Below, one piece after another: positions 1,136 through 22,053 of a stretch of DNA of 57,901 nucleotides. Below the pieces are notes generated by a model that was not told the origin of the DNA, searched no databases, and saw only the letters and a program-made list of their open reading frames with translations. The stretch comes from Eggerthellaceae bacterium. GTDB lineage: Bacteria > Actinomycetota > Coriobacteriia > Coriobacteriales > Eggerthellaceae. The stretch is taken from positions 1 through 57,901 of the forward strand of contig JAFWJU010000068.1 of assembly GCA_017511465.1 (NCBI GenBank), in the 5' to 3' direction. Both the position numbers and the translations under genes were made by a program. The number at the start of each line of letters is the position of its first letter. Position 1 is the stretch's first letter.

Positions 1136-1167
1136 ATGCTCTCCTTGCAGTGAGCGGACGCACGGTC

Positions 1168-1336: not shown

Positions 1337-1355
1337 TCCCCCACGCTCAAATCCA

Positions 1356-5106: not shown

Positions 5107-5133
5107 ACCTTGGCAGTTCAAGCACGTTAAACG

Positions 5134-5166
5134 AAACCGGCTGGAAGACATGGTTCCAGCCGGTTT
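5134..5166 (+). terminator. Rho-independent terminator
   Basis: A perfect 13-bp stem (AAACCGGCTGGAA / TTCCAGCCGGTTT) with a 7-base loop is followed by a T-rich run. It sits just after the 4141-5106 gene and can also serve the convergent cbiF. Confidence 0.88.
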
Positions 5167-5191
5167 TCTTTCGGTGCAGGCGATCGAGCGC

Positions 5192-5950
5192 CTAGTCGCC
5201 CGTCGCCGTGCGGAACATGTGCGTGAACGTGGGGTCGTACAGGCGCGAACGCTCGTAAGCATCGCCCAGGAAACCGCCGATGCAGATGAGCGCCGTGTTC
5301 TTGACGCCAGCTTGGCGCGCCGTCTCGGCGAGGGTTCCCACCGTGCAGCGCCACACCTGCTCGTCGGGCCACGTGGCCTTGTACACGATGGCCGCAGGCG
5401 TGTCGGGACTGTAGCCGCCTTCCAAAAGCTCTTCGACTGCGCCGTCGAGCAAGCTCGTCGACAAGAACAGCACCATGGTGCAGCCGTGCGATGCCATCTT
5501 GCACAGCTTCTCGCCTTCGGGCACAGGCGTGCGACCCTCCATGCGCGTGATGATGACCGACTGCGACACATTCGGCAACGTGTATTCGGCCTTGAGCGCA
5601 GCGGCCGCGCCGCAGAACGACGACACGCCGGGCACCACGTCGTAAGCGATGCCCGCTTCGTCGAGCAGGTCCATCTGCTCGCGGTGCGCGCCGTACAACG
5701 ACGGGTCACCCGTGTGCAGGCGCACCGTCGTCTTGCCCGCTTGCTCGGCGGCCTTCATGACGTCGATCACCTCTTCGAGCGTCATGTGCGCCGAATTGTG
5801 GATTTCGCAGCCTTCCTTGGCATAGTCGAGCAGCGCGGGGTTGACGAGCGAGCCCGCGTAAATGATGACATCGGCGTCTTGCAGCATGTTCGCTCCACGC
5901 ACCGTTATGAGGTCGGCGGCTCCCGACCCGGCTCCCACGAAATGAATCAT
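5192..5950 (-). CDS. cbiF: Cobalt-precorrin-4 C11-methyltransferase
   Basis: SAM-dependent methylation at C11 of the ring in anaerobic cobamide synthesis. This is a full-length tetrapyrrole methylase (252 aa) starting MIHFVGAGSGAADLITVRGA, with the CbiF/CobM signatures YAGSLVNPALL, RLHTGDPSLYGA and VVPGVSSF, and the C-terminal pattern YKATWPDEQVWRCTVG. The ATG at 5950 is preceded by GGGAGAATCC. It is alone on its strand here, convergent with the unrecognised gene and divergent from the phosphodiesterase gene. The other cbi genes lie on both sides, so the cluster is interleaved rather than one operon. Confidence 0.95.
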   Translation of the reverse strand: MIHFVGAGSGAADLITVRGANMLQDADVIIYAGSLVNPALLDYAKEGCEIHNSAHMTLEEVIDVMKAAEQAGKTTVRLHTGDPSLYGAHREQMDLLDEAGIAYDVVPGVSSFCGAAAALKAEYTLPNVSQSVIITRMEGRTPVPEGEKLCKMASHGCTMVLFLSTSLLDGAVEELLEGGYSPDTPAAIVYKATWPDEQVWRCTVGTLAETARQAGVKNTALICIGGFLGDAYERSRLYDPTFTHMFRTATGD

Positions 5951-6145
5951 CGGATTCTCCCTTTTCGTGTAGGCGTGTCCGTCTAAGGCGACGGCTTCAC
6001 CTTGTCGAATATACCGTATCTACGCGCTGTAAGCACCCCCAACGTTGCGTGGAAAGCCGCACAGCTTATCGCCGCGACCTCGCATGTTTCGCGCTACTAT
6101 GGAAACAGCACGCAAATAGCCCAGAACTCGAGCGATTGGATGATC

Positions 6146-7009
6146 ATGAGCAAGAAGCGCATGTCCGGCGGGGTCAAGGCCATCATCGTCATCTGCTGCA
6201 TCGTCGTGGTGCTCGTCGGCGTCTCGATTCCCCTGAAGATGCCGGGTGCCAGCGCTGCTGATCAGCTTAAGCCGTTCATGAAGCAGCCAATTGCGCATCG
6301 CGGGTACTTCGACAACGACAGCCCCGCACCCGAGAACTCATTAGCGGCGTTCCAACGCGCCATCGACCATGGTTACGCCATCGAGCTTGACACGCAGCTG
6401 ACCGCAGATGGCACCGTCATCGTGCTGCACGATAAGAGCCTGTTGCGTTCGAGCGGCGTCGACCGCAACGTCGACGACATGACCGACGCCGAACTCGCCG
6501 AATGCCGCCTGTTCGGCTCAACCGAGAAGGTGCCCACGTTCAAGGAAGCGCTCGACCTGATAGACGGTCAAGTGCCGCTGCTTGTCGAGATCAAGGGTGA
6601 AGCGGGTGACGACGTGGCGGCCATTTCGGAGGCGACCGCCAAGCTGCTCGACGAATACGATGGCATATATGTCGTACAGTCGTTCAACCCGTTCGCACTG
6701 CAATGGTTCATGAACAACCGCCCCGACATACCGCGTGGATTGCTGGCAAAGGACTTCATCGCCGACGGCGAGGGTCAAAGCTTCGTGAACCGCATAGCCT
6801 TAACTGGCATGTTCACGAACGTGGTCGCGCGCCCGAACTTTATCTCATACGAGCTGAAGAGCGACGGACAGCCGACATTCGAGGCAATGCAGGCATTCAC
6901 CGACCTGCCCTGCTTTGCTTGGACGCTCAAGAGCCAAGAGGAGCTTGACCAAGCAAAAGCTGCCGGTTTCGAAGGCTTCATCTTCGACAGCTTCGAGGCA
7001 AAGCTGTAA
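6146..7009 (+). CDS. Membrane-anchored glycerophosphodiester phosphodiesterase family protein
   Basis: Hydrolyses glycerophosphodiesters to glycerol-3-phosphate and an alcohol (family role). One N-terminal membrane anchor (about residues 10-28, IIVICCIVVVLVGV) is followed by a GDPD TIM-barrel. The catalytic-type motifs are AHRGYFD, ENSLAAFQRAI, ELDTQLTADG, VLHDK and LVEIKG. The start at 6146 was chosen because the hydrophobic anchor then lies close to the N-terminus and GGA lies five bases upstream. Earlier ATGs (6002, 6140) lack a better ribosome site. At about 287 aa the length is normal. It probably acts outside the membrane or at its face. The neighbour downstream is a rubredoxin-containing protein 74 bases away. 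Confidence 0.85.
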   Translation: MSKKRMSGGVKAIIVICCIVVVLVGVSIPLKMPGASAADQLKPFMKQPIAHRGYFDNDSPAPENSLAAFQRAIDHGYAIELDTQLTADGTVIVLHDKSLLRSSGVDRNVDDMTDAELAECRLFGSTEKVPTFKEALDLIDGQVPLLVEIKGEAGDDVAAISEATAKLLDEYDGIYVVQSFNPFALQWFMNNRPDIPRGLLAKDFIADGEGQSFVNRIALTGMFTNVVARPNFISYELKSDGQPTFEAMQAFTDLPCFAWTLKSQEELDQAKAAGFEGFIFDSFEAKL

Positions 7010-7083
7010 CGGTAACAACCGAGCCAATCTGCTTACGCGCGGCTCGACGGCATTTGACAGACCCCCAAGAGAGAGGACGCGCT

Positions 7084-7773
7084 ATGACCACCGAAAGCAT
7101 TGACAAGAAGGCGTTCAGGTCGATGAGCTACGGCCTGTACATCGTGTCTGCCATAGCCGACGATAAGGCAGCAGGCTGCATTGTGAACACGTTCCAGCAA
7201 GTCACTTCGAAACCCGCACGCGTGAGCGTCGCCATCAACAAGGAGAACTACACGACGGGCATCATCTTGAAGTCGGGACGTTTCGAGGTGTCCGTGCTTG
7301 CGGAAAGCGCCCCGATGGAACTCATCGGCACGTTCGGGTTCAAGACGAGTGCCGAGATCGACAAGTTCGCCGACACGGCTCATACGGTTGACGAAGCCGG
7401 TGTTCCGTATGTCACCGAGCGTGTCGTGGCTCATGTCGGCGCACGCGTCATCGACAAGGTGGATGTGGGAACGCATTACGTGATTGTCGGCGAGGTCGAG
7501 TGCGCCGAGGTGCTCTCGGACGAGCAGCCGATGACGTACGCATATTATCACCAGGTCAAAGGTGGAAAAACGCCACCCAAGGCCTCGAGCTTCGAATCGG
7601 ATGGCGCCGATGCCGGCGTCGCACCGGCAGAGGCCCCGAAGGACGCTGCACCGCGTTACGGCTGGCGCTGCATGATTTGCGGCTACGTCGTCGAGATGGA
7701 CGAGCTACCCGAAGATTTCACATGCCCGATGTGCGGCATGGGACGCGAGGCATTCGAGCGCATCGAACTGTAA
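7084..7773 (+). CDS. Flavin reductase-like protein with C-terminal rubredoxin domain
   Basis: A two-domain electron-transfer protein (229 aa). Residues 1-165 are a flavin reductase/flavoredoxin-type FMN-binding split barrel (GCIVNTFQQVTSKPARVSVA, then FEVSVLAES). A Pro/Ala-rich linker (165-190) leads to rubredoxin with four cysteines (196, 199, 214, 217; WRCMICGYV and FTCPMCGMG). This order is known from high-molecular-weight rubredoxins of acetogens, which pass electrons from NAD(P)H oxidoreductases to flavodiiron oxygen or NO reductases (family knowledge). The start at 7084 has AGAGAGG eight bases upstream; the earlier start at 7054 does not. It is convergent with cbiD. Confidence 0.9.
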   Translation: MTTESIDKKAFRSMSYGLYIVSAIADDKAAGCIVNTFQQVTSKPARVSVAINKENYTTGIILKSGRFEVSVLAESAPMELIGTFGFKTSAEIDKFADTAHTVDEAGVPYVTERVVAHVGARVIDKVDVGTHYVIVGEVECAEVLSDEQPMTYAYYHQVKGGKTPPKASSFESDGADAGVAPAEAPKDAAPRYGWRCMICGYVVEMDELPEDFTCPMCGMGREAFERIEL

Positions 7774-7798
7774 GCGCAACCCTTCCGCCGTTTCGGCC

Positions 7799-8929
7799 TT
7801 ACACCTGCCAACGACGGGCAAGTTCGTCTGCGCCGGGGGTTTTGCCCAACACGCCGTGCACGTTCGAGAACACGATGGCCTCTATCTGCAGGGCGCCGGC
7901 TGCGCGGTGGCTCAGCTTGTCAGCGAGGCTTTGCATAAGCGATTGCATCGTCTTCTCGGCCAAGCCGCACACAAGCAGCACCTCGAGCGCGGCATCGGTC
8001 GTCGACGCATCCATGATGGCGCGCACAGCCTGCCGCGAGGCCTCAGCAAGCGCCGCGTGCGCCGCCAGCACCTCGACCCGGCAATCGGCAACGCGGGAAT
8101 GCGTGTTCATGACGCCGCCCGCCACCTTGGCCATCTTGCCGATGTGCCCCACGATGAGCATGCGCTCAAAGCCGAGTACGTTCGCCGCGTCTATCGTGGC
8201 ACCGAAATAATTCGAGCACGACACGGCTTCGTCCATGTTCAACTGCAGCTGCCCGCAAGCGAAGTCGCGGCCGTAATTGCCCGGCACGACGAGCAAGTCG
8301 GTCACGCCGCGTGCGCGTAGCGTTTTCATCTCGAGCTCGATAGAGGAAATGAGGGCGTCTTCGCTCATGGGACGCACGATGCCGCTCGTGCCGAGCACCG
8401 AGATGCCGCCCTCGATGCCAAGCCGGGGATTGAACGTCTTGGCTGCCAATTCGACGCCTGCCGGTATCGACACGGTCACGAGAAAGCCCGCGTCGTCGAC
8501 GCCGGCAGTTTCGCGGACTTGGTCAGCGATCATCTTGCGGGGCGTGGAATTGATGGCCGCCTCGCCCACGGGCTGATCCAATCCCTCGCGTGTCACGCGT
8601 CCGACGCCGATGCCGCCGTCGACGCGAATTCCGGGAATATCGCTGCGTTCGACGCGGGCATACACGAGCGCGCCGTCGGTCACATCGGGATCATCGCCCG
8701 CATCCTTGCGCACGGCACATTCCGCCCAGCCATCACCGGTGCGGCTCTCCTCGATCTCCACGACGGCATCGATGCCCGCAGGCGTCGACACCGTGACGGC
8801 AGGAACCGCATTGTCGTGGAGCAACAACTCGGCAGCCGCGCGTGCGGCGGCAGCGGCGCATGTGCCCGTCGTGTATCCGCAACGCATGCGCTTCGTGCCC
8901 ACCGTTATGTACTCTTCCAGCTGTTTCAT
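7799..8929 (-). CDS. cbiD: Cobalt-precorrin-5B C1-methyltransferase
   Basis: Methylates C1 of the ring in the anaerobic cobamide route. 376 aa with the CbiD N-terminus RCGYTTGTCAAAAARAA, the central GIGRVTREGL-like segment GVGRVTREGLDQPVG, and the GTSGIVRPMSEDALI and GNYGRDFA motifs. Length and motif order are normal for the family. The start is ATG 8929. It is transcribed toward the convergent rubredoxin gene and away from the toxin-antitoxin operon. No riboswitch is visible upstream, so this gene is probably not under direct cobalamin control. Confidence 0.95.
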   Translation of the reverse strand: MKQLEEYITVGTKRMRCGYTTGTCAAAAARAAAELLLHDNAVPAVTVSTPAGIDAVVEIEESRTGDGWAECAVRKDAGDDPDVTDGALVYARVERSDIPGIRVDGGIGVGRVTREGLDQPVGEAAINSTPRKMIADQVRETAGVDDAGFLVTVSIPAGVELAAKTFNPRLGIEGGISVLGTSGIVRPMSEDALISSIELEMKTLRARGVTDLLVVPGNYGRDFACGQLQLNMDEAVSCSNYFGATIDAANVLGFERMLIVGHIGKMAKVAGGVMNTHSRVADCRVEVLAAHAALAEASRQAVRAIMDASTTDAALEVLLVCGLAEKTMQSLMQSLADKLSHRAAGALQIEAIVFSNVHGVLGKTPGADELARRWQV

Positions 8930-9019
8930 GTCGTCACGATTATAATGCGGAACCCGCCGTTCCGAAGACGACTCTGCTATCGGTTCAACCGCATGCGTTC
9001 AAGCCTCACCAAATCTGGC

Positions 9020-9038
9020 ATGCTATACTGTATAGCAT
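9020..9038 (+). promoter_or_regulatory. Palindromic operator over the toxin-antitoxin promoter
   Basis: ATGCTATACTGTATAGCAT is a perfect dyad (9-bp arms, one central base). It lies 14 bases before the antitoxin start, includes -10-like TATACT, and is followed directly by the GGAGG ribosome site. Such placement is typical of autorepression by the antitoxin or the toxin-antitoxin complex. Confidence 0.75.
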
Positions 9039-9051
9039 AGGAGGTGCTACG

Positions 9052-9402
9052 ATGGGCACGACCGTGCAATTCAATACCCGTTTGGACCGAGACTTGAAAG
9101 CATCGGGCGACGCGGCGCTTTCCCTTATCGGCCTTAACCCCACGCAAGCAGTCCGCGCACTTTGGGAAAAGGCCGCGCGACGGGGTGAGGACCTCGAGCA
9201 GGTCGCGCAACTGCTAGCCCCCGCCACCGATCAAGCACCGCAAGCGAAAGCCGCCGATGTCGTGCAACAGGGATGGGCGCTCATGGACGCGGCGTACGAA
9301 TCACTGGGAATCGACCTGGCTGCAACGTCCGACTTCCCAGATGACGACGAGATGCTCGAAGAAGCCTTGTACGAACGCATGGTGCAACGGGAGCTTGCAT
9401 GA
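9052..9402 (+). CDS. RelB/DinJ-type antitoxin
   Basis: Labile antitoxin and probable autorepressor (116 aa). The N-terminus VQFNTRLDRDLKASGDAAL and LIGLNPTQAVRALWEKAA is a ribbon-helix-helix arrangement as in RelB/DinJ proteins; the acidic C-terminal part (about residues 90-116) would wrap the toxin. Start 9052 is preceded by AGGAGGTGCTACG and by a perfect palindrome over the promoter; a longer reading from 8842 would run through both and is rejected. The TGA overlaps the next ATG (ATGA), giving translational coupling with the PIN-domain gene. Pairing of a RelB-like antitoxin with a PIN toxin rather than RelE/YafQ is a known but less common combination. Confidence 0.85.
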   Translation: MGTTVQFNTRLDRDLKASGDAALSLIGLNPTQAVRALWEKAARRGEDLEQVAQLLAPATDQAPQAKAADVVQQGWALMDAAYESLGIDLAATSDFPDDDEMLEEALYERMVQRELA

Positions 9403-9902
9403 TGAAAAACCCACCCATCATAGTCGTCGATACGAGCGTCTGGCTTGACAACTACCTTGCTGACAGGCCAAACGCAGGGCAATCCCGTTCTTTCATCATG
9501 CAAGCACGCGAATCAGGGGTGCAGCTAACCTACCCCATACACTGCCTGAACGACATATACCTGCTCATCCAAAGTCATCTTAAACGCGCAGCACGCTCGC
9601 AGGGCGAGTTAACCGAAGACGATGCCGCCGCCATCCGGGAAATCGCCTGGGCCTGCATCGAGAACATGCGGGAGTTCGCCACCGCCGTAGGAGCCGACGA
9701 GTCCGATGCCTGGAAGGTTTGCAAGTACCGACATCTCACGAACGATCTTGAAGACAACTTCGTCTTGGCGGCAGCGGAGCGCGTTCCCGCCGATTTCCTC
9801 GTCACCAACGACCAACGGCTCTTGCGCAAGTCGACTGTGAATGCCTACACACCCGAAGACGCCGTCATCGTCCTTAAGACAATTCAACAGCAAAGCAGGT
9901 AG
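9399..9902 (+). CDS. PIN-domain toxin (VapC-like ribonuclease)
   Basis: Probable metal-dependent endoribonuclease toxin (167 aa). The first PIN acidic residue is in VVDTSVWLDNY (about residues 9-19), a central Glu/Asp lies in LTEDDAAAIREIAW, and the C-terminal acidic pair is in NDLEDNFVLAAAER with LVTNDQRLL. This order matches the PIN fold active site. Two ATGs stand in tandem (9399 and 9402); the first overlaps the antitoxin stop. It is followed two bases later by a small zinc-ribbon gene, probably on the same transcript. Confidence 0.85.
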   Translation: MMKNPPIIVVDTSVWLDNYLADRPNAGQSRSFIMQARESGVQLTYPIHCLNDIYLLIQSHLKRAARSQGELTEDDAAAIREIAWACIENMREFATAVGADESDAWKVCKYRHLTNDLEDNFVLAAAERVPADFLVTNDQRLLRKSTVNAYTPEDAVIVLKTIQQQSR

Positions 9903-10794: not shown

Positions 10795-10824
10795 AAGGCC
10801 GGCCGCACTCCTGCGACCGGCCTT
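10795..10824. terminator. Bidirectional rho-independent terminator
   Basis: AAGGCCGGCCGC pairs with GCGACCGGCCTT (one mismatch, 6-base loop), with T residues after the hairpin and A residues before it. It lies between the convergent XRE gene and the URO-D methyltransferase gene. Confidence 0.82.
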
Positions 10825-10846: not shown

Positions 10847-12085
10847 CTAGTACTTGCCGTATTCGATCGTGGTCTGGTACCACGCGTCCATGTTCTCTTC
10901 CTTGAAGTGGTCCATGACGATGGAGCAGTCCATGACGAAGCCGCCGCCGGGCGCGCACTCGTCGATCATGCGCTTGGTCTCCTCGACGATGCGCTCGGGT
11001 TTGCCGTATGCCAGCAGCGCGCCGGGCAGGTTGCCGCAGACGCACGTGTGGCCGTCCAGGATCTTGCGCGCCTTGGCGATGTCCACCTGCTCGAACATGC
11101 CCAGGATGCCCGCAGGCAGCAGATCGCGAATCATCTCGAGGCGGTGGTTGTACTTGCCCTCGAAGAAGACGTATGGGATGAGGCCGAGCTCTTGTTCGCG
11201 CTCGATGACCTTGCGCAGGCTGGGCGCGTAGAAGCGCTCCCAGTTCTCGGGGCTCAGGAAGTCGTCGGTTCCGCCGTGCAGCGGCATGAAGCAGTACTTC
11301 ATGCCCGCGGCCGCGATGCCCTCGACGCCCTTCAGGGCCCAATCGGTCAGGATCTCCAGGGCGGCCTCGACCTTCTCGGGGCACTCGTACAGGTCCATCG
11401 GCAGCTCGAGCAGGCCGCGCAGGTTGTCGCCGAGCATGTCGTAGGGCGCGTTCTGGCCCAGGATGCATCCCAACGGCGTCTGGTACTCGAGCGCCGTCTG
11501 CGACATGAGGGCCTGCCCGTCCAGCCACTTCTGCGACTGGTCGGCGGCGGCCATGAGCGTGATCAGCGTCTCGCGCACCTCGGGATCGGCGAACTGGGCC
11601 ATGCTGGCGTAGTGGCCGAACTCGACGAAGTTGGTGAAGTCCATCTTGGCCAGGCCCTGCAGCTTGGCATGGCGGCGCGGGTACACCTTCGTCATGAGGA
11701 AATGCGAGGGGTCGCGGATGAACTCGTCGTACTCGTCTTCCTCCATGTAGGTCTTGTCCACGATCTGGAAGCCCATCATGCGGTCGATGCCCCACGTCTC
11801 GCCCGGCCAGCGCACGGCCTGCGTCCCGAGGACCTCCATGACGTTGATGGGATATGCGGCGGGAGCCCAGAACAGGTCGGTCTCCCAGCGGGAGAGGAAG
11901 TACTCGACGCCCTTCTTCATCATGCGGTAGTCGTTGAGCGCCTCGTACTTGGAGACGCCCGCCAGCTCGCTGTAGACCGTGCCCATGCGCGGCGCGAAGG
12001 GGACGCGGTCGCCCTCCTCGAACCGCATGGCGGCCGCCACGCGCGCCTCACGCTTCTCGATGGTGTTCTCTGTCTCGTAAGCCAT
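10847..12085 (-). CDS. Uroporphyrinogen-decarboxylase-fold methyltransferase (MtaA/MtbA/MtgA type)
   Basis: 412-aa URO-D superfamily protein. It is not a good HemE: the N-terminal HemE arginine motif is replaced by RFEEGDRVPFAPRMGTV. In this superfamily MtaA, MtbA and MtgA move methyl groups between a corrinoid protein and coenzyme M or tetrahydrofolate, using zinc. C387 (GGFVMDCSI) occupies the place of the C-terminal zinc cysteine of that group. The usual HxC pair is not clearly at its normal place (FFEGKYNH, 308-314); an HTC triplet at 346-348 lies later. Start 12085 has a strong GGGGGAGGAGAA site; the longer reading from 12202 is rejected. It overlaps the upstream Cys-pair gene by 38 bases and closes the molybdoenzyme operon, so it may act with that enzyme on methoxylated or methylated substrates (inference). 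Confidence 0.82.
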   Translation of the reverse strand: MAYETENTIEKREARVAAAMRFEEGDRVPFAPRMGTVYSELAGVSKYEALNDYRMMKKGVEYFLSRWETDLFWAPAAYPINVMEVLGTQAVRWPGETWGIDRMMGFQIVDKTYMEEDEYDEFIRDPSHFLMTKVYPRRHAKLQGLAKMDFTNFVEFGHYASMAQFADPEVRETLITLMAAADQSQKWLDGQALMSQTALEYQTPLGCILGQNAPYDMLGDNLRGLLELPMDLYECPEKVEAALEILTDWALKGVEGIAAAGMKYCFMPLHGGTDDFLSPENWERFYAPSLRKVIEREQELGLIPYVFFEGKYNHRLEMIRDLLPAGILGMFEQVDIAKARKILDGHTCVCGNLPGALLAYGKPERIVEETKRMIDECAPGGGFVMDCSIVMDHFKEENMDAWYQTTIEYGKY

Positions 12086-12299
12086 GATTCTCCTCCCCCG
12101 TTTCGTCACAAGCTTTTGCATTATCCATATCAGACATGCGGATCCCGGGTCGAATCGGAACCCGCATGCCGCATCTGTCGCATATCGTAGCGTATGAGTC
12201 ATTCAGATGTTTGCAGAACGGGCAATAACCCGCCGCCATGGGCTTCCGAATCTCGCCTTTGCATTTCCCGCAGTTAATGCAAGCGTAGCCGCACGACAC
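12048..12299 (-). CDS. Cys-pair mini-protein (zinc ribbon or small Fe-S protein)
   Basis: 83 aa with seven cysteines in CINCGKC, CPFC and CDRC before residue 45, then a loose charged tail. The GTG start at 12299 has GGGGAAGC five bases upstream, and the gene sits between the Fe-S subunit (40 bases upstream) and the methyltransferase, whose start it overlaps by 38 bases. The spacing and Cys pattern argue for a real gene rather than chance. It could be a double zinc ribbon or carry a small Fe-S centre. A role as accessory or electron carrier for the molybdenum enzyme is inference only. Confidence 0.65.
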   Translation of the reverse strand: MSCGYACINCGKCKGEIRKPMAAGYCPFCKHLNDSYATICDRCGMRVPIRPGIRMSDMDNAKACDETGEENHGLRDREHHREA

Positions 12300-12338
12300 C
12301 GCTTCCCCAATCGCTAGCGATAGCTTTGCTTTTTCCTA

Positions 12339-12716
12339 TTAGCTGCCAAGCGTGAAGAGGACGTAGTCCTTGTGGTCCTTCGCCTTCTCGGCCATCTCGT
12401 CAATGGGCCCGAACTCCATGCACTGAGCCTGGCAATGCTGCACGCAAGTGGGCACCTTGCCCAGCGCTCTGCGTTCGGCACATGTATCGCACATCGTTGT
12501 AGGCGCGGCCAGGTAGCCGAACTGCCACTCGTCGCCGGCTTCGTCCAGAGGCCAATGACCCATATCGTGAACGAGAATGCCCGACTGCCCGACTGGCATT
12601 TTATGCTCCATTTGGCAGGCGATTTCGCACGAGTGGCATCCCGTGCACCATTGATAGTCGATAAGCATGCCGTACTTGGCCGCAGTCCTTGCATTTAGCT
12701 CCTTCGGAGTTTGCAT
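12339..12716 (-). CDS. 4Fe-4S subunit of the adjacent molybdopterin oxidoreductase
   Basis: 125 aa. An N-terminal bacterial ferredoxin motif WCTGCHSCEIACQMEH (about residues 22-37) and a second cluster of Cys (CDTCAERRALGK, TCVQHCQAQC) resemble a shortened DmsB/PhsB-type beta subunit, enough for one or two [4Fe-4S] clusters instead of the usual four. There is no signal or membrane segment. Start 12716 has GAGAGAGG six bases upstream; the longer reading from 12830 overlaps the catalytic subunit and is not conserved-looking. It is directly downstream of the catalytic subunit, so electron transfer to or from the molybdenum site is the expected role. Confidence 0.88.
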   Translation of the reverse strand: MQTPKELNARTAAKYGMLIDYQWCTGCHSCEIACQMEHKMPVGQSGILVHDMGHWPLDEAGDEWQFGYLAAPTTMCDTCAERRALGKVPTCVQHCQAQCMEFGPIDEMAEKAKDHKDYVLFTLGS

Positions 12717-12813
12717 TTCGTACCTCTCTCTCTTCGTTACGGGGCCCGTCGCCCGATCGTGTGCGCCAGCCCCATTCGCTTTGAACGTCATGTTGTTCGC
12801 ATGACTCCCATGC

Positions 12814-15270
12814 TTACTGTTGCGCGGCACTCGCCTCGGCCAAAGCCGCCTTCATGATCTTGGCTTCTTCCATGATTTTCGCGCGCTCGTCAACGAGCTG
12901 CTGGATGGCGGGGACGCCCTTTCCGTCAAGCGCCTGCGACAGATAGCCGCTATCCGCATCGGGGAAATAGCCGTTGGTGTCGTCTTCGGGTGTGACCTTG
13001 TAAAGCCTCACGAGCGTGGTCTTGTAGTTCGAGCCGAAGCCCGCCCTACCGGGGATGCCCGGAAGCAAGTTGTTCACGTTCAGGTCGTGCGAATTGTAAA
13101 GCTTCTCGGGATCGCCCTCGGGGTACCACCATGCGTGATCGCATGCGATGATGCGCGGGTTTTGGTAAATATTGGTAACCTCGACCTGGGCCTTGCAGCG
13201 TCCGTACACGTTTTCAACCCAAACCCAATCTCCCGTCTTGAAGCCGTATTCCTCGGCAGTCGCGGGGTTCAGGTACACGTTCTGATCTTTCTTCAGGTTG
13301 CGCATTCTGGCAACTTGACGATGCTCGGAATGGAAAAGCGACCACGGGCGGGCGCCCGTCGTCAACACTAGCGGGTATTCATCGAGCAACTCGGGTGTGG
13401 ACGTCGGACCGGGTACTGGCTCCTCGAAATACGGCAGCGGATCCATTCCTGCGTTGTCGTAGAAAGTCGACCACAGCTCGATGCGGCCAGTGGGCGTGTT
13501 GAATCCAGGCTGGCCATCAGCGCGAAGGCGACCGGTTTCGTAACGCTTGTAGCTGAACGGCAGGTACACAGGGCCAACTTCGCGCATCTCCTCGAAGTTG
13601 TACGGCGTCTGCGCCTTGAGCATAGCGCCGAACATCTCGTCGACGTTCTCCCACGGCCAAGCTTCGGGATTGAAGCGCTTGCCCAACATGAGGTTGATTT
13701 CCATGTCGGACTTGCATTCGCCGATTTGGCACACCTTGTTTATGACCTCACCGCGTTGCACGCCGTCGCCCAAGCGGATGCCGTTGCGCTCGGGGAAGGT
13801 AGCCGCAGGCAAGACCACATCGGAGGTCGCCATGATGGTCGGCGTCATGAACAAATCGACGGAAACGTTGAAATCGCAGTTCATCAAGCCAATGTACATT
13901 TCCTGCGGGTCAGCCGACATGCAGGCAAGCACGTTGTTCTGTTGCAGCCACGTTGCGTGAATCTTGTACGGCTCGCCCGTTGCCATGGTGTGGCGCAGCT
14001 CGTCAGGTTGGGCGATTTGGAAGCCGAAGTTCAACAATGGGTACGCATCCAAGCCGATGCGCTTCACCCATGTTTCCTCGGGACACAGCTCGCGGCCCCA
14101 ACCGCCGGCATAATTGAGGATCTCGGGCGGGGCGATAATGCCGCCGGGAACGTCGACATTGCCCGTGATTTGGAAGCACGCCACAATAGCCTGCGAGGCG
14201 GGCAGGGCTTCCTTCGTCATGTCGACCGCAACACCCCACTGCATGGTGGCGGGCTTGCTGTTGGCGAGGATGCGGGCGCCTTCGACTATCTTCTCTTCGG
14301 GAATCCAAGTGATTTCGGCAACGCGCGCAGGCGTGTACTCCTGAACACGCTCGACGAGCTGCTCGAAGCCGTATGTCCACTTGTCGACGAAATCGTGATC
14401 GTACAAGTCCTCGTTGATGATGACGTTCAGGAAACCGAGCGCCAAAGCAGCATCGGTACCCGGCCGAATGGGCAGATGCAAGCGCGAGTGCACGGACAGC
14501 CACGTGACCTTCGGGTCGATCATAACGACTTCCATGCCGCGTTTCATGAGGTCGACAACCCAGTGGCCGTAGAAGCCGTCGGAATTGGCGCGAAGCGGGT
14601 AGTTGCCCCAAATGAACATGGCCTCGGGGACCTTGTACTCGGGATTATCGTAACGATCGGCAAACTGCTGCGAGCAGTCAGCGACCCAGAACGAACCAGC
14701 CGTCGCGGCCATGCCGGCAACACGGGGCAGGTAGCATGCGCACCCGGAGAGGAACAGAACATAGTTTGGCGATCCGAAGGACCAGCACAGGCGAGTGATG
14801 TAGGCTGCGATATCACGACCAGTACCCTGGCCGAACACGACTGCCTCGGCCCCGAACTTTTCCTTGATCTCGAGGAACTTGGTCGCCACCAAATCGATGG
14901 CCTCATCCCAAGAGATGCGCTCCCATTTGTCCTTACCACGATCTTTCGGGTCGCGTTTCATCGGGTACATTAGGCGGTCCTGGTGGTTCGTGACTTCAGG
15001 CACGCCAAGACAACGAACGCACAAGCGTCCCCTGTTGTACGGATTCTCCGGGTCGCCTTCGACCTTGACGAGATTGCCTTCCGCATCGGTATACAGAAGC
15101 ACGCCACAGCCATCGTGGCATCCGGGACCCGACCAAGCGCTGCCCCGCGTAACCGTCAGGCCGCCTTCCTCGTACCTCCAGGGGTGCACGTGCGGCACTT
15201 TGATGAAGTCGCCGACGAGCTGTGTTGACACACCGCTGTTGTTGTAGCCCTCCACTCCGTGTTCTGCCAT
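12814..15270 (-). CDS. Cytoplasmic bis-MGD molybdopterin oxidoreductase, catalytic subunit
   Basis: 818-aa DMSO reductase superfamily enzyme. Near the N-terminus C51, C55, C84 and C87 (GPGCHDGCG, RLCVRCLG) could bind a [4Fe-4S] cluster, but the first Cys of the usual CxxCxxxC is missing. The molybdenum ligand region is SGCACYLPR (C177 or C179). MGD-binding segments follow (IWGNYPLRANSDGF, MIDPKVTWLSVHS, PIRPGTDAALALG), and the C-terminal domain starts at about TTGARPWSLFHSEHR. There is no twin-arginine signal, so it acts in the cytoplasm. Start 15270 has GAAAGGAGCG upstream. The substrate is unknown. Size and lack of export recall pyrogallol transhydroxylase and the catechol dehydroxylases of gut Eggerthellaceae, but nothing in the sequence fixes this. 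A TetR gene is divergent. Confidence 0.88.
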   Translation of the reverse strand: MAEHGVEGYNNSGVSTQLVGDFIKVPHVHPWRYEEGGLTVTRGSAWSGPGCHDGCGVLLYTDAEGNLVKVEGDPENPYNRGRLCVRCLGVPEVTNHQDRLMYPMKRDPKDRGKDKWERISWDEAIDLVATKFLEIKEKFGAEAVVFGQGTGRDIAAYITRLCWSFGSPNYVLFLSGCACYLPRVAGMAATAGSFWVADCSQQFADRYDNPEYKVPEAMFIWGNYPLRANSDGFYGHWVVDLMKRGMEVVMIDPKVTWLSVHSRLHLPIRPGTDAALALGFLNVIINEDLYDHDFVDKWTYGFEQLVERVQEYTPARVAEITWIPEEKIVEGARILANSKPATMQWGVAVDMTKEALPASQAIVACFQITGNVDVPGGIIAPPEILNYAGGWGRELCPEETWVKRIGLDAYPLLNFGFQIAQPDELRHTMATGEPYKIHATWLQQNNVLACMSADPQEMYIGLMNCDFNVSVDLFMTPTIMATSDVVLPAATFPERNGIRLGDGVQRGEVINKVCQIGECKSDMEINLMLGKRFNPEAWPWENVDEMFGAMLKAQTPYNFEEMREVGPVYLPFSYKRYETGRLRADGQPGFNTPTGRIELWSTFYDNAGMDPLPYFEEPVPGPTSTPELLDEYPLVLTTGARPWSLFHSEHRQVARMRNLKKDQNVYLNPATAEEYGFKTGDWVWVENVYGRCKAQVEVTNIYQNPRIIACDHAWWYPEGDPEKLYNSHDLNVNNLLPGIPGRAGFGSNYKTTLVRLYKVTPEDDTNGYFPDADSGYLSQALDGKGVPAIQQLVDERAKIMEEAKIMKAALAEASAAQQ

Positions 15271-15805: not shown

Positions 15806-16408
15806 GTGGCTATGCTGTTGAGCACTAAAGGGCACGAAACCCGGATGATGATCTTCGAGGCGTTCGAAAGACTGCTGCAATCCAAAGGATTCGAGGACAT
15901 TTCCGTCAGCATGATTTGCAAAGAAGCCGGCATTTCTCGAGCAACGTTTTACTACCACTTCAAGGACAAGTTCGACATTAGCCAATGGCACTATGGCCTC
16001 GTCGCCGAGACGTACCTTTTCCAAACAGGCCGCACGTTGAATTGGCTTCAAGCGAATTACCTGAACACTATGGAGTTTTCGAAGCACGAAGCGGTTTATC
16101 GCGAATGCTTCGGCATGCACGGGTACGAGTCTCTGTTCGAGCATGCGAAGCGTCGGAGAATCGAGACTCTTCGTGAGACGATCATAGATTACAAACACGA
16201 GAAACTTGATTCCGAGCTGGAATTCCAGGTGGTTGCGTTAGCGGATGCAGAGGTCGGAGGAGTGACCCACTGGTTCAAAGGCGGCATGCCGTATAGCGTC
16301 ATGGACTTGTGCCTTTATTTGGACAGCATCGTCCCGCGCAGGCTCTACAACCTCCTTAACGATCCAGTTGACGATTCTCTTCAGCCGCTTTTGGGCAACC
16401 TGCAATAG
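15806..16408 (+). CDS. TetR-family transcriptional regulator
   Basis: 200 aa. The N-terminal helix-turn-helix (about residues 12-60) contains MIFEAFERLLQSKGFEDISV and the recognition part ICKEAGISRATFYYHFKDKF, a standard TetR signature. The C-terminal domain is of the compact TetR_C type without an assignable ligand. The GTG at 15806 follows AAGGGGGC by six bases; the ATG at 15812 is the alternative. It is transcribed away from the molybdoenzyme operon, with a 535-base region between them, so local control of that operon, possibly in response to its substrate, is likely by context. Confidence 0.88.
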   Translation: MAMLLSTKGHETRMMIFEAFERLLQSKGFEDISVSMICKEAGISRATFYYHFKDKFDISQWHYGLVAETYLFQTGRTLNWLQANYLNTMEFSKHEAVYRECFGMHGYESLFEHAKRRRIETLRETIIDYKHEKLDSELEFQVVALADAEVGGVTHWFKGGMPYSVMDLCLYLDSIVPRRLYNLLNDPVDDSLQPLLGNLQ

Positions 16409-16487: not shown

Positions 16488-17186
16488 CTAGGATTCCCGC
16501 GGCGCCTTGACGATGACGACCGAGAAGTAGTCGGTCCCGGCATCGATGTCGACATCGGACAGGCGCGGAAGCACCTTCTCGTCGGGCAAGCCGCAATTGG
16601 TGACCATGCTCGCATGGTGTAGTTGCCCGCGTTCGGCTAGCTTGTCGCGCAGACTGCCAACCGCCTTGCCGGATTTCATGAACACTTTGGTGGCGGGAAC
16701 GTTTAAGGCTGCATCGATATCGGTTGCCATGGCGGGTGCCACCAGCAGGCTCTGAGAGCCTTCGCACAGCGTCATGCCAAGCTTCGCCGCGCAAGCAGAA
16801 AACGAAGTGACGCCGGGAATGATTTCGGCCTCGTAGCCCCGTGCAGCGACGATGTCGTGCACGTAGCCGTACGTGGAGTAAATGGCGATATCGCCCAGGC
16901 ACAGGTACGCAACCGTCTTTCCCTCGTCGAGCAACGCGCATACGTCATCGGCAATCTTGGCATACGCTTTTCGCGCTGTTTCACGGTCGCCCGTCATGGG
17001 CGTCGGACAATCGAGCACCCGCTTGTCCTGCAAATACTCATCGGCGATGTCGAACGCCGTCTGGCGCTTGTGGCCGATGTTGGGCACAGCCAAGACATCG
17101 GCTTCGCGAATGGCGCGCACCGCTTTAAGCGTCATGAGTTCGGGGTCGCCTGGCCCTACGCTCACGCCGAAGAGCCTACCCTTCAT
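16488..17186 (-). CDS. cbiL: Precorrin-2 / cobalt-factor II C20-methyltransferase
   Basis: Methylates C20 of the ring in cobamide synthesis (232 aa). It has the tetrapyrrole methylase start LFGVSVGPGDPELMTLKAV, the central YLCLGDIAIYSTYGY, and EIIPGVTSFSACAAKLG. The start at 17186 overlaps the end of the ATPase gene by 11 bases, so it is the last gene of the riboswitch-controlled operon. Biosynthesis and uptake are therefore co-regulated here. Motifs and length are normal. Confidence 0.94.
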   Translation of the reverse strand: MKGRLFGVSVGPGDPELMTLKAVRAIREADVLAVPNIGHKRQTAFDIADEYLQDKRVLDCPTPMTGDRETARKAYAKIADDVCALLDEGKTVAYLCLGDIAIYSTYGYVHDIVAARGYEAEIIPGVTSFSACAAKLGMTLCEGSQSLLVAPAMATDIDAALNVPATKVFMKSGKAVGSLRDKLAERGQLHHASMVTNCGLPDEKVLPRLSDVDIDAGTDYFSVVIVKAPRES

Positions 17187-17970
17187 CGCGCTCTTCCTCC
17201 AACTTGATGTTGCCGCTCACAGGGTCGAAGACACCTGGCTCGAGGTCGTAGAGCTCGTTGATAACCCCGGGCGTGAATATCTCATCGGGCGGACCAGCTG
17301 CCACGACGCCATCGCCCTTGATGCACATGACGTAATCGCTGACCTTGCGCGCCAGCGGCAGCTCGTGAAGCGACATGATGACGGCCACATCTCGTTCGCG
17401 AACGAGGCGGCGGAGCACATTAAGCAGCTCGATCTGGTAATGGATGTCGAGATAATTGGTCGGCTCGTCAAGCATGATGATATGCGGTTCTTGCGCGATG
17501 GCACGCGCGAGCAAGATACGCTGGCGTTGGCCGTCGGAAATCTGCATGAAATCGCGGTCGCGAAGGTCCCAAACGTGCACCATGTCCATCGCGTCACGCA
17601 CTTTTTCGCGATCCTCGTCGGAAAGGATGCCCAAACGCCCCGTGTAAGGATAGCGGCCTGTCTCGACGATATCGGCGCACGTGAGCAGCTCGGTGCGCAT
17701 GCGCTCGGTCAGCATGACCGACAATTCGAGCGAAAGCTCGTGTGCCGTCAGGTCGCCCACGGACTTGCCCGAGATGAACACCGCGCCTCCGAGCGATTCG
17801 AGATAGCCGACGATGCTCTTCAGGATCGTCGACTTGCCGGCGCCATTCGGGCCGATGAGCGTCATGATCTCCCCAGCATGCAGCTGAATGTTTACGCCCG
17901 AGAGCAACGGCACGCCGTCGTATCCGACGACGAGGTCCTTCGTTTCAAGGTAAACAGGGCGCTCGTCCAT
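17176..17970 (-). CDS. ABC transporter ATPase for corrinoid/cobalt/iron-chelate uptake (FepC/BtuD type)
   Basis: 264 aa. Walker A is GPNGAGKST (about residues 39-47), the signature is ISDGQRQRILLARAIAQ (DGQ replaces the usual SGGQ), Walker B is IIMLDEPTNYLD, and the switch His is in SLHELPLA. This is the FepC/BtuD class energising a BtuC-like permease. The start ATG at 17970 overlaps the permease TGA (ATGA). A longer open frame back to 19038 in this phase is an artefact of the permease gene. Riboswitch control and the cbiL neighbour favour corrinoid, though iron or cobalt chelates are possible. Confidence 0.92.
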   Translation of the reverse strand: MDERPVYLETKDLVVGYDGVPLLSGVNIQLHAGEIMTLIGPNGAGKSTILKSIVGYLESLGGAVFISGKSVGDLTAHELSLELSVMLTERMRTELLTCADIVETGRYPYTGRLGILSDEDREKVRDAMDMVHVWDLRDRDFMQISDGQRQRILLARAIAQEPHIIMLDEPTNYLDIHYQIELLNVLRRLVRERDVAVIMSLHELPLARKVSDYVMCIKGDGVVAAGPPDEIFTPGVINELYDLEPGVFDPVSGNIKLEEERDEG

Positions 17971-19022
17971 CAGCGCCTCACCTTCTCGCGCTTCAGCAGG
18001 ATGCTGATGACGACGGGCGCGCCGAATATGGCCGTCACGGCAGAAATCGACACCTCGGTCGGCGCGAACACCGAACGCGCGATTAGGTCGCAGAACAGGC
18101 AGAAAATGGCGCCGCCGAAAAACGCGCCCGGTATGACGACGAGGGGCTTGGACGTGCCAAGCGCCCGTTTGACGATATGGGGCACCGCGATGCCGACGAA
18201 GCTGATGGGTCCGGCGAAGGCCGTGACCGTCGCCGCCAACAGGCTGGACAGCAGTATGAGCGCAATGCGGAAGGCGCGGATGTTCACACCCATGCTGCGC
18301 GCATACTGCTCGCCCAGCTGGAAGGCTCCGATGGGCTTCGAAAGGAAGAACACCGCGATACTCGCCGCGATGACGACGACCGTCATGATGCCGATATCGC
18401 TCCAGTTGATGCCCGAGAAACTGCCGAGCGACCAATTCTTCAGGTTGACGATGTTCGCATCCGACGCGAACGTGATGAGGAAATCGGTGGCAGCCGAGCA
18501 GATGTAGCCGATCATGACGCCCGCCACGATGAGCATCGACATCGAATTGATGCGCCGCGACACCAGCAACACGAACAGCATGGCGATGAGCGAACCCACG
18601 AACGCCGATACGACCATCATGCCGCTCGTCATGACGCCCGACCCGCCCACAACGAGAATCATCACAAGGGCGACGACAAGTTTCGCTCCCGAGCTGATGC
18701 CCAAGATGAACGGACCGGCAATGGGGTTGTTGAAGAACGTCTGCAGCAGGAAGCCCGATAACGCCAGCGCGCCACCCAGCAAAGCTGCCGCTATGAGCCT
18801 GGGCAAGCGAATGCTCCAGATGACTTGGGAGTTCGTGCTTCCCGCATCTTGACCCGCAAGGATGCCCGGCAAATCGGCAACGGGAACGTTCAGGCTGCCA
18901 ATGCACAAATTGAGCGCCGCAAGGAACACGAGCAGCACGAACAGCACGATGAACACGACCGTCACGCGCTGATGGCGCACGCTTTGCCCGAACTCGTTGT
19001 CTATGTCGCTTTGCTTGCGCAC
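17970..19022 (-). CDS. FecCD/BtuC-type ABC permease
   Basis: 350 aa with about ten membrane helices. It has the family motifs IRLPRLIAAALLGGALALSG, LLQTFFNNPIAGPFILGISS, the coupling-helix region FVGIAVPHIVKRALG, and a final hydrophobic helix FGAPVVISILL. It forms the channel for the binding protein encoded just upstream and is translationally coupled to the ATPase downstream. Start 19022 has GGAGTT upstream in the transcript. The substrate is most likely a corrinoid or related metal chelate because of the riboswitch and cbi genes in the operon. Confidence 0.93.
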   Translation of the reverse strand: MRKQSDIDNEFGQSVRHQRVTVVFIVLFVLLVFLAALNLCIGSLNVPVADLPGILAGQDAGSTNSQVIWSIRLPRLIAAALLGGALALSGFLLQTFFNNPIAGPFILGISSGAKLVVALVMILVVGGSGVMTSGMMVVSAFVGSLIAMLFVLLVSRRINSMSMLIVAGVMIGYICSAATDFLITFASDANIVNLKNWSLGSFSGINWSDIGIMTVVVIAASIAVFFLSKPIGAFQLGEQYARSMGVNIRAFRIALILLSSLLAATVTAFAGPISFVGIAVPHIVKRALGTSKPLVVIPGAFFGGAIFCLFCDLIARSVFAPTEVSISAVTAIFGAPVVISILLKREKVRR

Positions 19023-19076
19023 CTAAACTCCTTGACATGTGCCAAAACGGACAGCAGCGATTGGCGCATTCTCAGT

Positions 19077-20621
19077 CTACTCCAGTTTGAACACGTACGT
19101 CGTTTCGGCATCCGAGCCGGTGATCACCGTGTTGAAGTCGGCGATGATGCGACCCGTCTGCATCATCTGCTGATACATGTTCTGGTCGGTCGACCACACG
19201 TTGCCGTTCTTCACGGCAGCGAAATCGCTCAGCAACGTGTTCTTGCGCACGAGCGCATCAAGGTTGTCAACGCTCGCGTCAATCGAGGCGTTGTAGATGA
19301 TGATGTCGGCGTCTTTGGCCATGGCGTAGAAGCGCTCCATTTCGAGCGTGACGCTGGACATCGAATCTTGGGCTTCGGACAGCTCGTCGAACACATACGT
19401 GCCGCCAGCCTGGTCGATCATCTTGGTGATGTAATCGCCGGGCTTGCGCACGACGGCGTTGCCGTTGGAATTGATGTAGAAGAACGCCACCGTTTTCCCC
19501 GTAGGCGTGCTGTCGACGCCGCTTACTTGGGCAACCTGCTCGTCGAAGAGCGCCTGGGCCTCCTCCTCGCGATCGAGCATGGCACCGTAGCATTTAACCC
19601 ATTCGGTGCGGCCAAGCGGTTCCGATTCGTAGCTCGACATTTCGGCGAACACGGGTATGCCCAACTCGATGAGCTTCTCGCGCACATCAGGCGTGTGGTT
19701 GATCATCGTCGATTCGATGGCAAGGCGCACGCCTTTGCCGAGCAACAGCTCGTAATCGGGCGTGTTGTACTTGCCTCCATACGTGATCGCCCCTGAATCC
19801 ATCGCGTCGATTGCCGCATCGACATGCCAATTGTCCTTTGATATGCCCGATACCGTGACAATATCGAGAGCGTCGAGGGCGTCGATGAGGCACATCGTAT
19901 CGGATGCGACCAGGTATACGTCGCCAATGGGCTGCTGGATCACGGTGATGTCGGAAGCAAGCCCGTCGGGCACGTTCGCGCCTTCGGGCACCGTCAGGTA
20001 ACGCTGGCCGTCGGAAAGGCACAGCAGCTTGTAGCCGCCCTCGTAATAATCGACCGTGAAGCACGTGGCGTATTGCAGCGGCAAGCTGGAGGTCGGCTTC
20101 ATTCCATTGCCCAAATCGGTGTTGTGGAAATTGGCCACCTGCACTGTCGTCGGGCTATCACCCACTTCGGATTCCGCCGCTTCGCCATCTGCCCCAAAGC
20201 TGATGACGTAATCGATCATGTGGGGCTGGCTCATGGCCGTCGTCTCGGCCTGCACGGCGAGATCCTCATCGAGCGTTGCGACGGGAATCTCGAACGTCGA
20301 ATTACCCGATTCGTTGACGGGCAGGTATTCCACGCCGTCAACGACCATCTTGTCGTAGTTCGAACTGGACCAAACAACCGTGAGCGTCATCGACCCGTCT
20401 TCGGCAACGACCAGCTTGGCGGGGCTTTCGACGGTTGCACGCCCCGAACCACCGCTCAGTATGATGTCTACGGAGTTCTCGCCCACAGCAAGAGCACCCA
20501 TCGAAGCACCTGCCGAAGAAGCCGCCGACATGGCGCCGACCCCCGTTTGCCCGCATCCGGCGCAGAACACCAGAACGCACGCCACTGCAGCGACAATCAG
20601 TCCATGAACGAGCCTCTTCAT
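19077..20621 (-). CDS. Lipoprotein ABC substrate-binding protein with N-terminal NEAT-like (iron transport-associated) domain
   Basis: 514 aa. Signal and lipobox end at C23 (VFCAGC). Residues 45-170 form a beta-rich domain with VDIILSGGSGRATVESPAKL and WSSSNYDKMVVDGVEYLP, a pattern common in gut Firmicutes/Actinobacteria binding proteins and related to iron transport-associated domains. Residues 180-514 are a FecB/BtuF-type binding fold (LSDGQRYLTVPEG, TVSGISKDNWHVD, GKYNTPDYELLLGKGVRLAI). Two ATGs in tandem (20624, 20621) follow GAGGAG; 20621 gives better spacing. It works with the FecCD permease and ATPase downstream. The extra N-terminal domain may help capture or hand over ligand. Confidence 0.88.
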   Translation of the reverse strand: MKRLVHGLIVAAVACVLVFCAGCGQTGVGAMSAASSAGASMGALAVGENSVDIILSGGSGRATVESPAKLVVAEDGSMTLTVVWSSSNYDKMVVDGVEYLPVNESGNSTFEIPVATLDEDLAVQAETTAMSQPHMIDYVISFGADGEAAESEVGDSPTTVQVANFHNTDLGNGMKPTSSLPLQYATCFTVDYYEGGYKLLCLSDGQRYLTVPEGANVPDGLASDITVIQQPIGDVYLVASDTMCLIDALDALDIVTVSGISKDNWHVDAAIDAMDSGAITYGGKYNTPDYELLLGKGVRLAIESTMINHTPDVREKLIELGIPVFAEMSSYESEPLGRTEWVKCYGAMLDREEEAQALFDEQVAQVSGVDSTPTGKTVAFFYINSNGNAVVRKPGDYITKMIDQAGGTYVFDELSEAQDSMSSVTLEMERFYAMAKDADIIIYNASIDASVDNLDALVRKNTLLSDFAAVKNGNVWSTDQNMYQQMMQTGRIIADFNTVITGSDAETTYVFKLE

Positions 20622-20793
20622 CATGTGCTCCTCGGGTTCAATCGCAATGTGAATGGGTTTTGCGCCTTCCCCCATCCCCCATCCACGGCTATTCCAACGT
20701 AACGGGCGGGACGGACGCGCTAACGCCCGCCCCGCCTGTCGGGAAAGGAAACGCTAACGGAACGAGTCTTGCACCCGCCCCGCTAATCGCCAA

Positions 20794-21972
20794 TTAAGCG
20801 ATGCTGTCAACGGCAGCCTTCACATGGGCCACGTAGATATCCTGAACGGCAGGAATCTCGCCCAAGCCGTTGATCTGGCAATCGACGGAGTCGAAAGCGC
20901 CAGCAGCGTTGAACTGGCTCACCCAGGACTCGGGATCCTCAGGATCGGCCATGTCGTTGTTGGCATGATCGCCAGCGACGACCATCAGCGGACGCAGGAT
21001 GACCTTCTTGAAGCCGGCATCCTTGACCTTGCCGATGACAACGTCACATGCGGTATCCTCGGGCTCGCCCTCAACGGTGCCGACGAAGACGTTCTTGTAA
21101 CCAAGTTCGTCCATGACGGTCTGCATCTGGTTGTAGGTGACGTTGGCGGTGTGCGAGGTTCCATGACCCATGAGCACCAAGGCGGTGTCCTCGGGAGCGG
21201 CAGCGGCGGCAACGACAGCCTCGGCGACGGCCTTCTTGTCGTCGTTGATGACGGTAGCATCAGCGCCTACCTCGCCCAGCAGCGGCTCGGCGACAACGAT
21301 GTTCATGTCAGCCTTGTAAGGCTCGAGAGCGGCGACCATCTCGTCATACTCGGCACCATGCATGAGATGCGTCGGAGCCACGACGAGGTTCTTCACGCCA
21401 GCTTCCTTGGCAAGGGCGAGAGCCTGGTCAACGTCGTTGATCTGCTCGCCATCGCGTGCGGCAATGTGGTTGATGATGATCTGGGCAGTGAAGGCGCGGC
21501 GCACGGACCAATCGGGGTATGCAGCCTGGATGGCCTTCTCGACACCACCGATGGTGGCAACGCGGCTGTCGTTAAACGACGTGCCGAAGCTGACGACGAG
21601 AATCTCGTTCTCGCCTTCAGGGGCAGTCGCTAGCGGATCGTCCTTAGAAGCGTCACCCGTGTCGAGGCCGAAGTAGTCGGCTTCCTCGACGAGTTCCTTC
21701 TGGGCGTCGGTCAGGGCGTCCCAAGCATCCTTGGCGGCCTTGCAGTCGGCATCGGTCGTGTCGGTGCGCTTCTGCACCTGGATGGCGGCGATCAGCTCGT
21801 CGACGGCGGCAGCGGCAGCGGCATCGGCGTCAGCGGATGCCGAAGACGAAGCCGAAGCGGAAGCCGAGCTGGCGCTCGCGCTCGAGGAAGCGCTGTTCGA
21901 CGCGCAGCCGAACACCGTGAAAGCGAGGCATGCAGCCACAGCCCCCACGGCAAGCGGTTTGACGAATTTCAT
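20794..21972 (-). CDS. cbiK: Lipoprotein-anchored CbiK-type sirohydrochlorin cobaltochelatase
   Basis: 392 aa. A lipoprotein signal (C23 in TVFGC) is followed by a low-complexity Ser/Ala stretch (24-56), a short helical spacer (57-100), and a class II chelatase domain from about 122 (LVVSFGTSFNDSRVATIGG). Candidate metal residues are H270/H274 in LMGHGTSHTANVTY and H336 in LMVVAGDHANND, matching CbiK. CbiK normally inserts cobalt into sirohydrochlorin in the cytoplasm; here the signal places it outside the membrane, as for the periplasmic CbiK of Desulfovibrio. It may handle external tetrapyrrole or metal rather than biosynthesis. It is second in the riboswitch operon, with an FecCD transporter downstream. 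Confidence 0.9.
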   Translation of the reverse strand: MKFVKPLAVGAVAACLAFTVFGCASNSASSSASASSASASASSSASADADAAAAAAVDELIAAIQVQKRTDTTDADCKAAKDAWDALTDAQKELVEEADYFGLDTGDASKDDPLATAPEGENEILVVSFGTSFNDSRVATIGGVEKAIQAAYPDWSVRRAFTAQIIINHIAARDGEQINDVDQALALAKEAGVKNLVVAPTHLMHGAEYDEMVAALEPYKADMNIVVAEPLLGEVGADATVINDDKKAVAEAVVAAAAAPEDTALVLMGHGTSHTANVTYNQMQTVMDELGYKNVFVGTVEGEPEDTACDVVIGKVKDAGFKKVILRPLMVVAGDHANNDMADPEDPESWVSQFNAAGAFDSVDCQINGLGEIPAVQDIYVAHVKAAVDSIA

Positions 21973-22053
21973 AGAAACCTCCTTGTTTCTCTCCCTTTCG
22001 TCCCTTTCCTATTCCCCAGGGGCGGTTCTTCAAAATCGCCCCTTGAAGCCCAC

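Follow-up and report, generated by a model that had tools for sequence, protein, structure and literature searches.

A dehydroxylase-type molybdoenzyme and a predicted corrinoid methyltransferase encoded in one operon of a ruminant-gut Eggerthellaceae bacterium

Can a single gut bacterium both demethylate methoxylated phenols and dehydroxylate the products? In the gut, lignan metabolism is described as proceeding by demethylation and then dehydroxylation, divided among species (PMC13418474), with demethylation assigned to acetogens and dehydroxylation to Eggerthellaceae. The question is raised by a run of four genes at positions 10847 to 15270, on the reverse strand, of a 57,901-nucleotide stretch of Eggerthellaceae DNA (contig JAFWJU010000068.1 of assembly GCA_017511465.1), the whole of which is called the window here. 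These genes encode, in order of transcription, a molybdoenzyme catalytic subunit (MOLY), a small iron-sulphur (Fe-S) subunit (FES), a mini-protein (MINI) and a methyltransferase of the URO-D superfamily (UROD), and a gene for a TetR-family regulator lies divergently upstream. We consider it plausible, if short of probable, that they form a TetR-controlled operon in which O-demethylation by UROD feeds dehydroxylation by MOLY. This reading starts from the gene content, the gene order, the family memberships, the conservation pattern and the partner proteins present in the genome, and proposes from them a substrate, an order of reactions, a coupling and a role for the mini-protein.

The operon and its molybdoenzyme

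MOLY (818 amino acids; 12814 to 15270), FES (125 amino acids; 12339 to 12716), MINI (83 amino acids as read, with a conserved part of about 55; 12048 to 12299) and UROD (412 amino acids; 10847 to 12085) are separated by 97 bp and 39 bp and, at the last junction, overlap by 38 bp, and an intrinsic terminator-like hairpin with a 13-bp stem lies directly 3' of UROD on the same strand (10795 to 10824). Because of this spacing, the overlap and the terminator directly after UROD, we regard the genes as one operon. A preliminary description of the locus, made from the sequence alone, had already recognised closely spaced or overlapping genes with a TetR regulator, and its limits are exact, 15270 being the ATG of MOLY and 10847 the stop of UROD. 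Good ribosome-binding sites stand 5' of MOLY, FES and UROD; the longer open reading frames listed for them (863, 163 and 451 amino acids) reflect upstream starts, the true sizes being about 818, 125 and 412. Pfam and NCBIfam searches recovered Molybdopterin, Molydop_binding and Molybdop_Fe4S4 in MOLY, DmsB-like Fe-S matches in FES, URO-D (PF01208) in UROD and TetR_N (1.8e-11) in the regulator (15812 to 16408, forward strand, putative start codon), with the double zinc ribbon of MINI (DZR, 1e-5) below the cutoff; Padloc returned nothing. The source genome, an Eggerthellaceae bin, is 90% complete and comprises 129 contigs totalling 1.9 Mb. The nearest named MOLY relatives come from a goat ileum bin (RGIG2436) and a RUG bin, and the host is a ruminant-gut bacterium. 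Misassembly at the junction of the molybdoenzyme and URO-D genes was excluded, since the order is the same in three separate genome bins whose intergenic sequence differs.

The closest solved relative of MOLY, a bis(molybdopterin guanine dinucleotide) (bis-MGD) enzyme, is the acetylene hydratase of Pelobacter acetylenicus (2e7z; about 28% identity), which comes first by single-sequence search against the PDB (E 5.8e-88), by profile (E 5.3e-124) and by fold (template-modelling score, TM, of 0.84 to the target, from a predicted model with a mean pLDDT of 72). Acetylene hydratase differs from MOLY in retaining the first Fe-S cysteine and in having no dedicated Fe-S subunit. Pyrogallol-phloroglucinol transhydroxylase, which was considered as the closest relation and rejected, stands far behind (E 2.6e-5 by sequence, rank 27 by fold). 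In a tree of 78 proteins, MOLY groups with the enzymes of two further genomes (G116 and G123), followed by those of two uncultured bins, Gordonibacter sp. 28C and P2775, and is nested among Gordonibacter paralogues; in-frame stops flagged in MOLY relatives lay at match ends and not mid-match in all three cases checked. The preliminary description had placed the molybdoenzyme in the cytoplasm and given it a reduced Fe-S subunit, and both points are upheld.

Catechol dehydroxylases are reported to be closest to acetylene hydratase (PMC7028382), and those of the Gordonibacter type to lack a twin-arginine translocation (TAT) signal and to have a small Fe-S partner (PMC7028382, PMC11887054). MOLY belongs to the acetylene-hydratase clade, begins MAEHGVEGYNN with no TAT signal, is one of the smaller catalytic subunits and lacks the standard Fe-S motif; FES lies next to it, has nine cysteines, which leaves room for two 4Fe-4S clusters, and its orthologues (72-95%) adjoin MOLY in all readable loci. 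As judged from sequence and a model structure, MOLY and FES are a cytoplasmic Gordonibacter-type catechol dehydroxylase, for which catechol dehydroxylation itself is predicted. The known enzymes of this type (Dodh, Gs Vadh and Eadh1-3; PMC7028382, PMC11887054, PMC12771579) are alike in the cytoplasmic bis-MGD subunit with its small 4Fe-4S protein, the acetylene-hydratase clade, the atypical Fe-S motif of the catalytic subunit and an adjoining regulator. Their reported regulators are LuxR or LysR proteins, whereas the window has TetR; the MFS and Amidohydro_2 genes of their clusters recur in relatives of the window locus, but its own operon contains no MFS gene and ends in URO-D, and a zinc-ribbon helper is unmentioned in the literature searched.

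The preliminary description had also singled out the missing first cysteine of the Fe-S motif as unusual. The position is indeed occupied by Gly48, and in 80 relatives with the motif it is Gly (76) or Ala (4), with an extra cysteine three residues past the last one (+3 after RLC) in 79, counts that are partly due to selection as the loci had been recruited with a pattern including WxGPGC, itself part of the scored region. All 16 clade members compared share Cys51, Cys55, Cys84 and Cys87. Because of this invariance, and because Gly or Ala is general at the first position, the pattern appears shifted rather than lost, the fourth cluster ligand having probably moved. According to a review, the Fe-S motif of Eggerthella catalytic subunits is absent from Gordonibacter proteins (PMC11574389); the missing cysteine is a family trait already known for the Gordonibacter enzymes, and is not special to the window locus.

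The methyltransferase and the zinc-ribbon protein

UROD reaches 34 bits against the HemE model, the cutoff of which is 303, and its N-terminus (EGDRVPFAPRM) lacks the RQAGR motif that is the N-terminal signature of HemE, so that a uroporphyrinogen decarboxylase is excluded. The UROD profile, built from 19 sequences, aligns over its full length with CdmB (E 8.8e-51, positions 5-414), and MtaA and HemE match it mainly over the C-terminal half. In the alignment to 4ay7, UROD has FFEG where H-x-C-G stands; the zinc ligands are absent, which excludes a zinc methyltransferase of the MtaA/CmuA type. Foldseek, run with a UROD model, gave generic URO-D and MtaA matches only (TM about 0.6) and CdmB was not among them, so the fold search does not separate the subfamilies.

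CdmB is a corrinoid-dependent chloromethane methyltransferase of Acetobacterium that contains no zinc; its near relations are the aryl O-demethylases MtvB, OdmB, VdmB and MtoB, among which it is reported to be an exception (PMC13222342). UROD shares with all five the URO-D superfamily and a long N-terminal half; the full-length profile match and the common lack of an H-x-C zinc site come from comparison with the CdmB sequence alone, at low identity. UROD is thus predicted to be of the corrinoid methyltransferase (methyltransferase I, MTI) type, related through CdmB to the aryl O-demethylases, which agrees with the corrinoid-type methyltransferase of the preliminary description. It is the single URO-D protein of its genome, where relatives have up to 13 matches. 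Its G+C content at third codon positions (GC3), 0.944, is the highest of the 43 window genes of at least 150 amino acids (the other 42 have a median of 0.778 and a maximum of 0.910), and since this value is extreme and the same bias is shared by most UROD orthologues, it suggests high expression.

The mini-protein, described earlier as having seven cysteines, has nine, eight of them in a conserved motif consisting of CGYACxNCGKCKG and a following CxxC...CxxC. A homologue lies within 3.5 kb of 30 of the 78 dehydroxylase-like loci, across Eggerthellaceae; the motif is also matched weakly in Sporomusa and Anaerolineales. The overlap with UROD arose because the window genome has lost a stop codon that G116 keeps 5' of URO-D. 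No paper on a zinc ribbon next to catechol dehydroxylases came up in a literature search. Its recurrence beside many such operons makes the mini-protein a candidate maturation or electron-transfer factor.

Distribution of the methyltransferase beside the molybdoenzyme

Is the pairing of UROD with MOLY meaningful? MOLY orthologues (84-90%) occur in five genomes of other genera (G049, G075, G066, G068 and G057), each with FES and a mini-protein homologue nearby and with an MFS gene that is part of the run or adjoins it, and TetR orthologues (60-91%) adjoin MOLY orthologues in G116, G049 and G075. As this set of four recurs in other genera, chance is excluded for the core. URO-D accompanies the MOLY orthologue in three of three readable loci of the window genus versus none of five in other genera. 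TetR, MOLY, FES and the mini-protein are a conserved module, to which URO-D was, to judge by this distribution, a later addition. G075 also has an Amidohydro_2 gene. At positions 8298-9353 of locus L089 such a gene follows the operon of a MOLY orthologue; its product resembles the ellagic-acid decarboxylase found beside known dehydroxylases, and offers a hint at the substrate.

The order MOLY-FES-mini-protein-URO-D recurs in G116 and G123, where both the spacers and the flanking genes differ, and TetR is seen in G116; the G123 contig stops inside URO-D and has exactly 87 bases in common with a contig carrying the rest of a URO-D. In G121, the start of MOLY and TetR are present and the contig ends before the URO-D region. 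UROD orthologues themselves (84-89%) mostly lie apart from MOLY: in G113, G118 and G119 the gene stands alone behind a LysR gene, in G120 and G121 it follows an Mbeg1-like gene, and in G115 it forms a tandem with a paralogue (28%), flanked by operons for other molybdoenzymes. A simple insertion between URO-D and CobI as in G120 was excluded, the order being different. Contig C29 of G116 (L078) starts and ends in URO-D (1-252 and 8895-9134), with the module and a second molybdoenzyme between these two directly oriented copies, an arrangement suggestive of recombination at URO-D. Positions 3066-8994 of L078 (5.9 kb with the start of the module, TetR and the second molybdoenzyme) are 99.75% identical to L234. 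G116 and G121 being bins of different species, this points either to a recent transfer or to contamination common to both.

No more than four of the 78 named MOLY-family loci have a URO-D, and these together with the window need three independent URO-D origins on the MOLY tree. In UBA3686, URO-D, MFS and MOLY follow in this order on one strand; in RUI371, URO-D and MOLY-FES are transcribed divergently; and in G395, from another family of the order, MOLY, FES, Amidohydro_2, three MFS genes and URO-D lie on one strand. Across six genomes of the genus, 11 of 47 URO-D genes have a molybdoenzyme within 5 kb versus 3.9 expected (P 0.0014, uncorrected for relatedness and for the tendency of catabolic genes to cluster), with 7 versus 2.5 expected at 2 kb and 3 versus 2 at 1 kb (P 0.31). 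We take these counts to indicate a moderate, recurrent association. At orthologue level the pairing with MOLY is restricted to the window genus; the families are known and their combination is unusual and new, a literature search for a linked O-demethylase/dehydroxylase cluster having found no paper. The preliminary description had held that separation of the two genes in most relatives would tell against its idea; this is largely what the orthologues show, and the idea is partly rescued by the repeated pairings of URO-D with dehydroxylase-type enzymes.

Proposed pathway and alternatives

The partners that a methyltransferase of this type would use are encoded on another contig of the same genome (C90), which carries a corrinoid protein, its activator (RACo), a methyltetrahydrofolate-type methyltransferase (methyltransferase II, MTII), a hydantoinase-like protein and DUF2284. 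It is the only such operon of the genome, and no MTI gene stands beside its corrinoid protein. The window itself contains a one-carbon (C1) island on the reverse strand (24133 to 30724) encoding a FocA formate channel, a FolE-like protein (named by eye), FolD, FchA, formate-tetrahydrofolate ligase and an MTHFR-like protein, which may together be the sink for the methyl group; no acetyl-CoA synthase was found in the 90% complete genome. UROD would strip the methyl group from a methoxylated phenol and pass it to the C90 corrinoid protein, from which MTII would transfer it to tetrahydrofolate. Its oxidation to formate by the MTHFR-like protein, FolD, FchA and the ligase would yield ATP and electrons. 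The catechol left by demethylation would be the substrate of MOLY, one hydroxyl being removed with electrons delivered via FES, and the mini-protein would act as a helper of MOLY and FES. That the whole forms a single-cell pathway, one operon demethylating and dehydroxylating the phenol with methyl oxidation to formate supplying the electrons for dehydroxylation, we hold to be rather doubtful. The same logic is found in the gut-consortium lignan route (Bess et al., as cited in PMC13418474), in which guaiacol demethylation yields catechols that are dehydroxylated next; there the steps are divided between Blautia and other species, whereas here both gene types are in one operon.

Several observations weigh against coupled demethylation and dehydroxylation. 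The operon has no transporter gene, unlike most relatives; URO-D is missing from the five loci of other genera, and UROD orthologues mostly lie elsewhere, at three loci alone behind LysR; the codon usage of UROD is far from that of MOLY (GC3 0.94 versus 0.75); the enrichment loses significance at 1 kb and carries the lack of correction given above; and the corrinoid protein, MTII and activator lie away from URO-D, a difference from the CdmB-branch systems. The C90 core could moreover serve an MttB-family methyltransferase encoded in the window (35611 to 37047, forward strand; PF06253, 2.9e-99), a single-copy gene and the only other corrinoid MTI found in the genome.

The main rival, a real possibility, is that UROD belongs to a methyltransferase gene of its own, strongly expressed, which in this genus has come to lie downstream of a mobile dehydroxylase module and is co-transcribed with it, the two serving different substrates. 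It would account for the wider spread of the core without URO-D, for the many contexts in which this gene of the genus is found, for the two direct URO-D copies around the G116 module, for the near-identical 5.9 kb in two species bins and for the difference in codon usage. It fits less well with the same order in three species despite different spacers and flanks, with the repeatedly independent pairings and with chemistry that suits successive steps on a methoxylated aromatic, a part of the preliminary description that is supported. We think it improbable that UROD acts on a non-aryl methyl donor (a haloalkane, a quaternary amine or another), with the dehydroxylase serving only as an electron sink for methyl oxidation: its nearest solved relative, CdmB, is a chloromethane enzyme and both lack zinc ligands, but in this respect CdmB reportedly stands apart from the aryl O-demethylases close to it (PMC13222342), and dehydroxylases need a catechol of their own, so that a linked supply would be more economical. 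Last, it is very improbable that MOLY is a hydratase, transhydroxylase or other reductase, for although acetylene hydratase is a non-redox enzyme, conservation of the Fe-S partner points to a redox function, the transhydroxylase match is weak, MOLY is nested among Gordonibacter paralogues, and the MFS and Amidohydro_2 genes in a relative's operon recall the MFS and metal-dependent decarboxylase of the ellagic-acid dehydroxylase cluster (PMC12771579).

Other neighbours were seen in the window. A LysR regulator fused to B12-binding domains (37067-38662, reverse strand; HTH_1, LysR_substrate, B12-binding_2 and B12-binding) adjoins the MttB gene and may be a cobalamin- or methyl-cobalamin-sensing regulator; many genomes of the genus encode similar proteins of 519-590 amino acids, as judged by length and a B12-binding_2 match alone. 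Genes resembling those of cobalamin biosynthesis and uptake (CbiD, CobI-type, corrin methyltransferase-like and BtuCD-like, named mostly by eye) surround the operon at 1-8929 and 16488-22629, and a likely toxin-antitoxin pair lies on the forward strand, a PIN-domain protein with a small RelB-like gene before it (9399-9902 and 8842-9402).

Returning to demethylation coupled with dehydroxylation, lignin-derived methoxylated phenols are plentiful in the rumen, and one cell may carry out both steps of their breakdown. The pairing names a candidate substrate class for these dehydroxylases, which can be studied in culture through their orthologues in Gordonibacter sp. 28C, and with both gene types in one operon it can be tested directly by genetics whether a single organism performs both steps.

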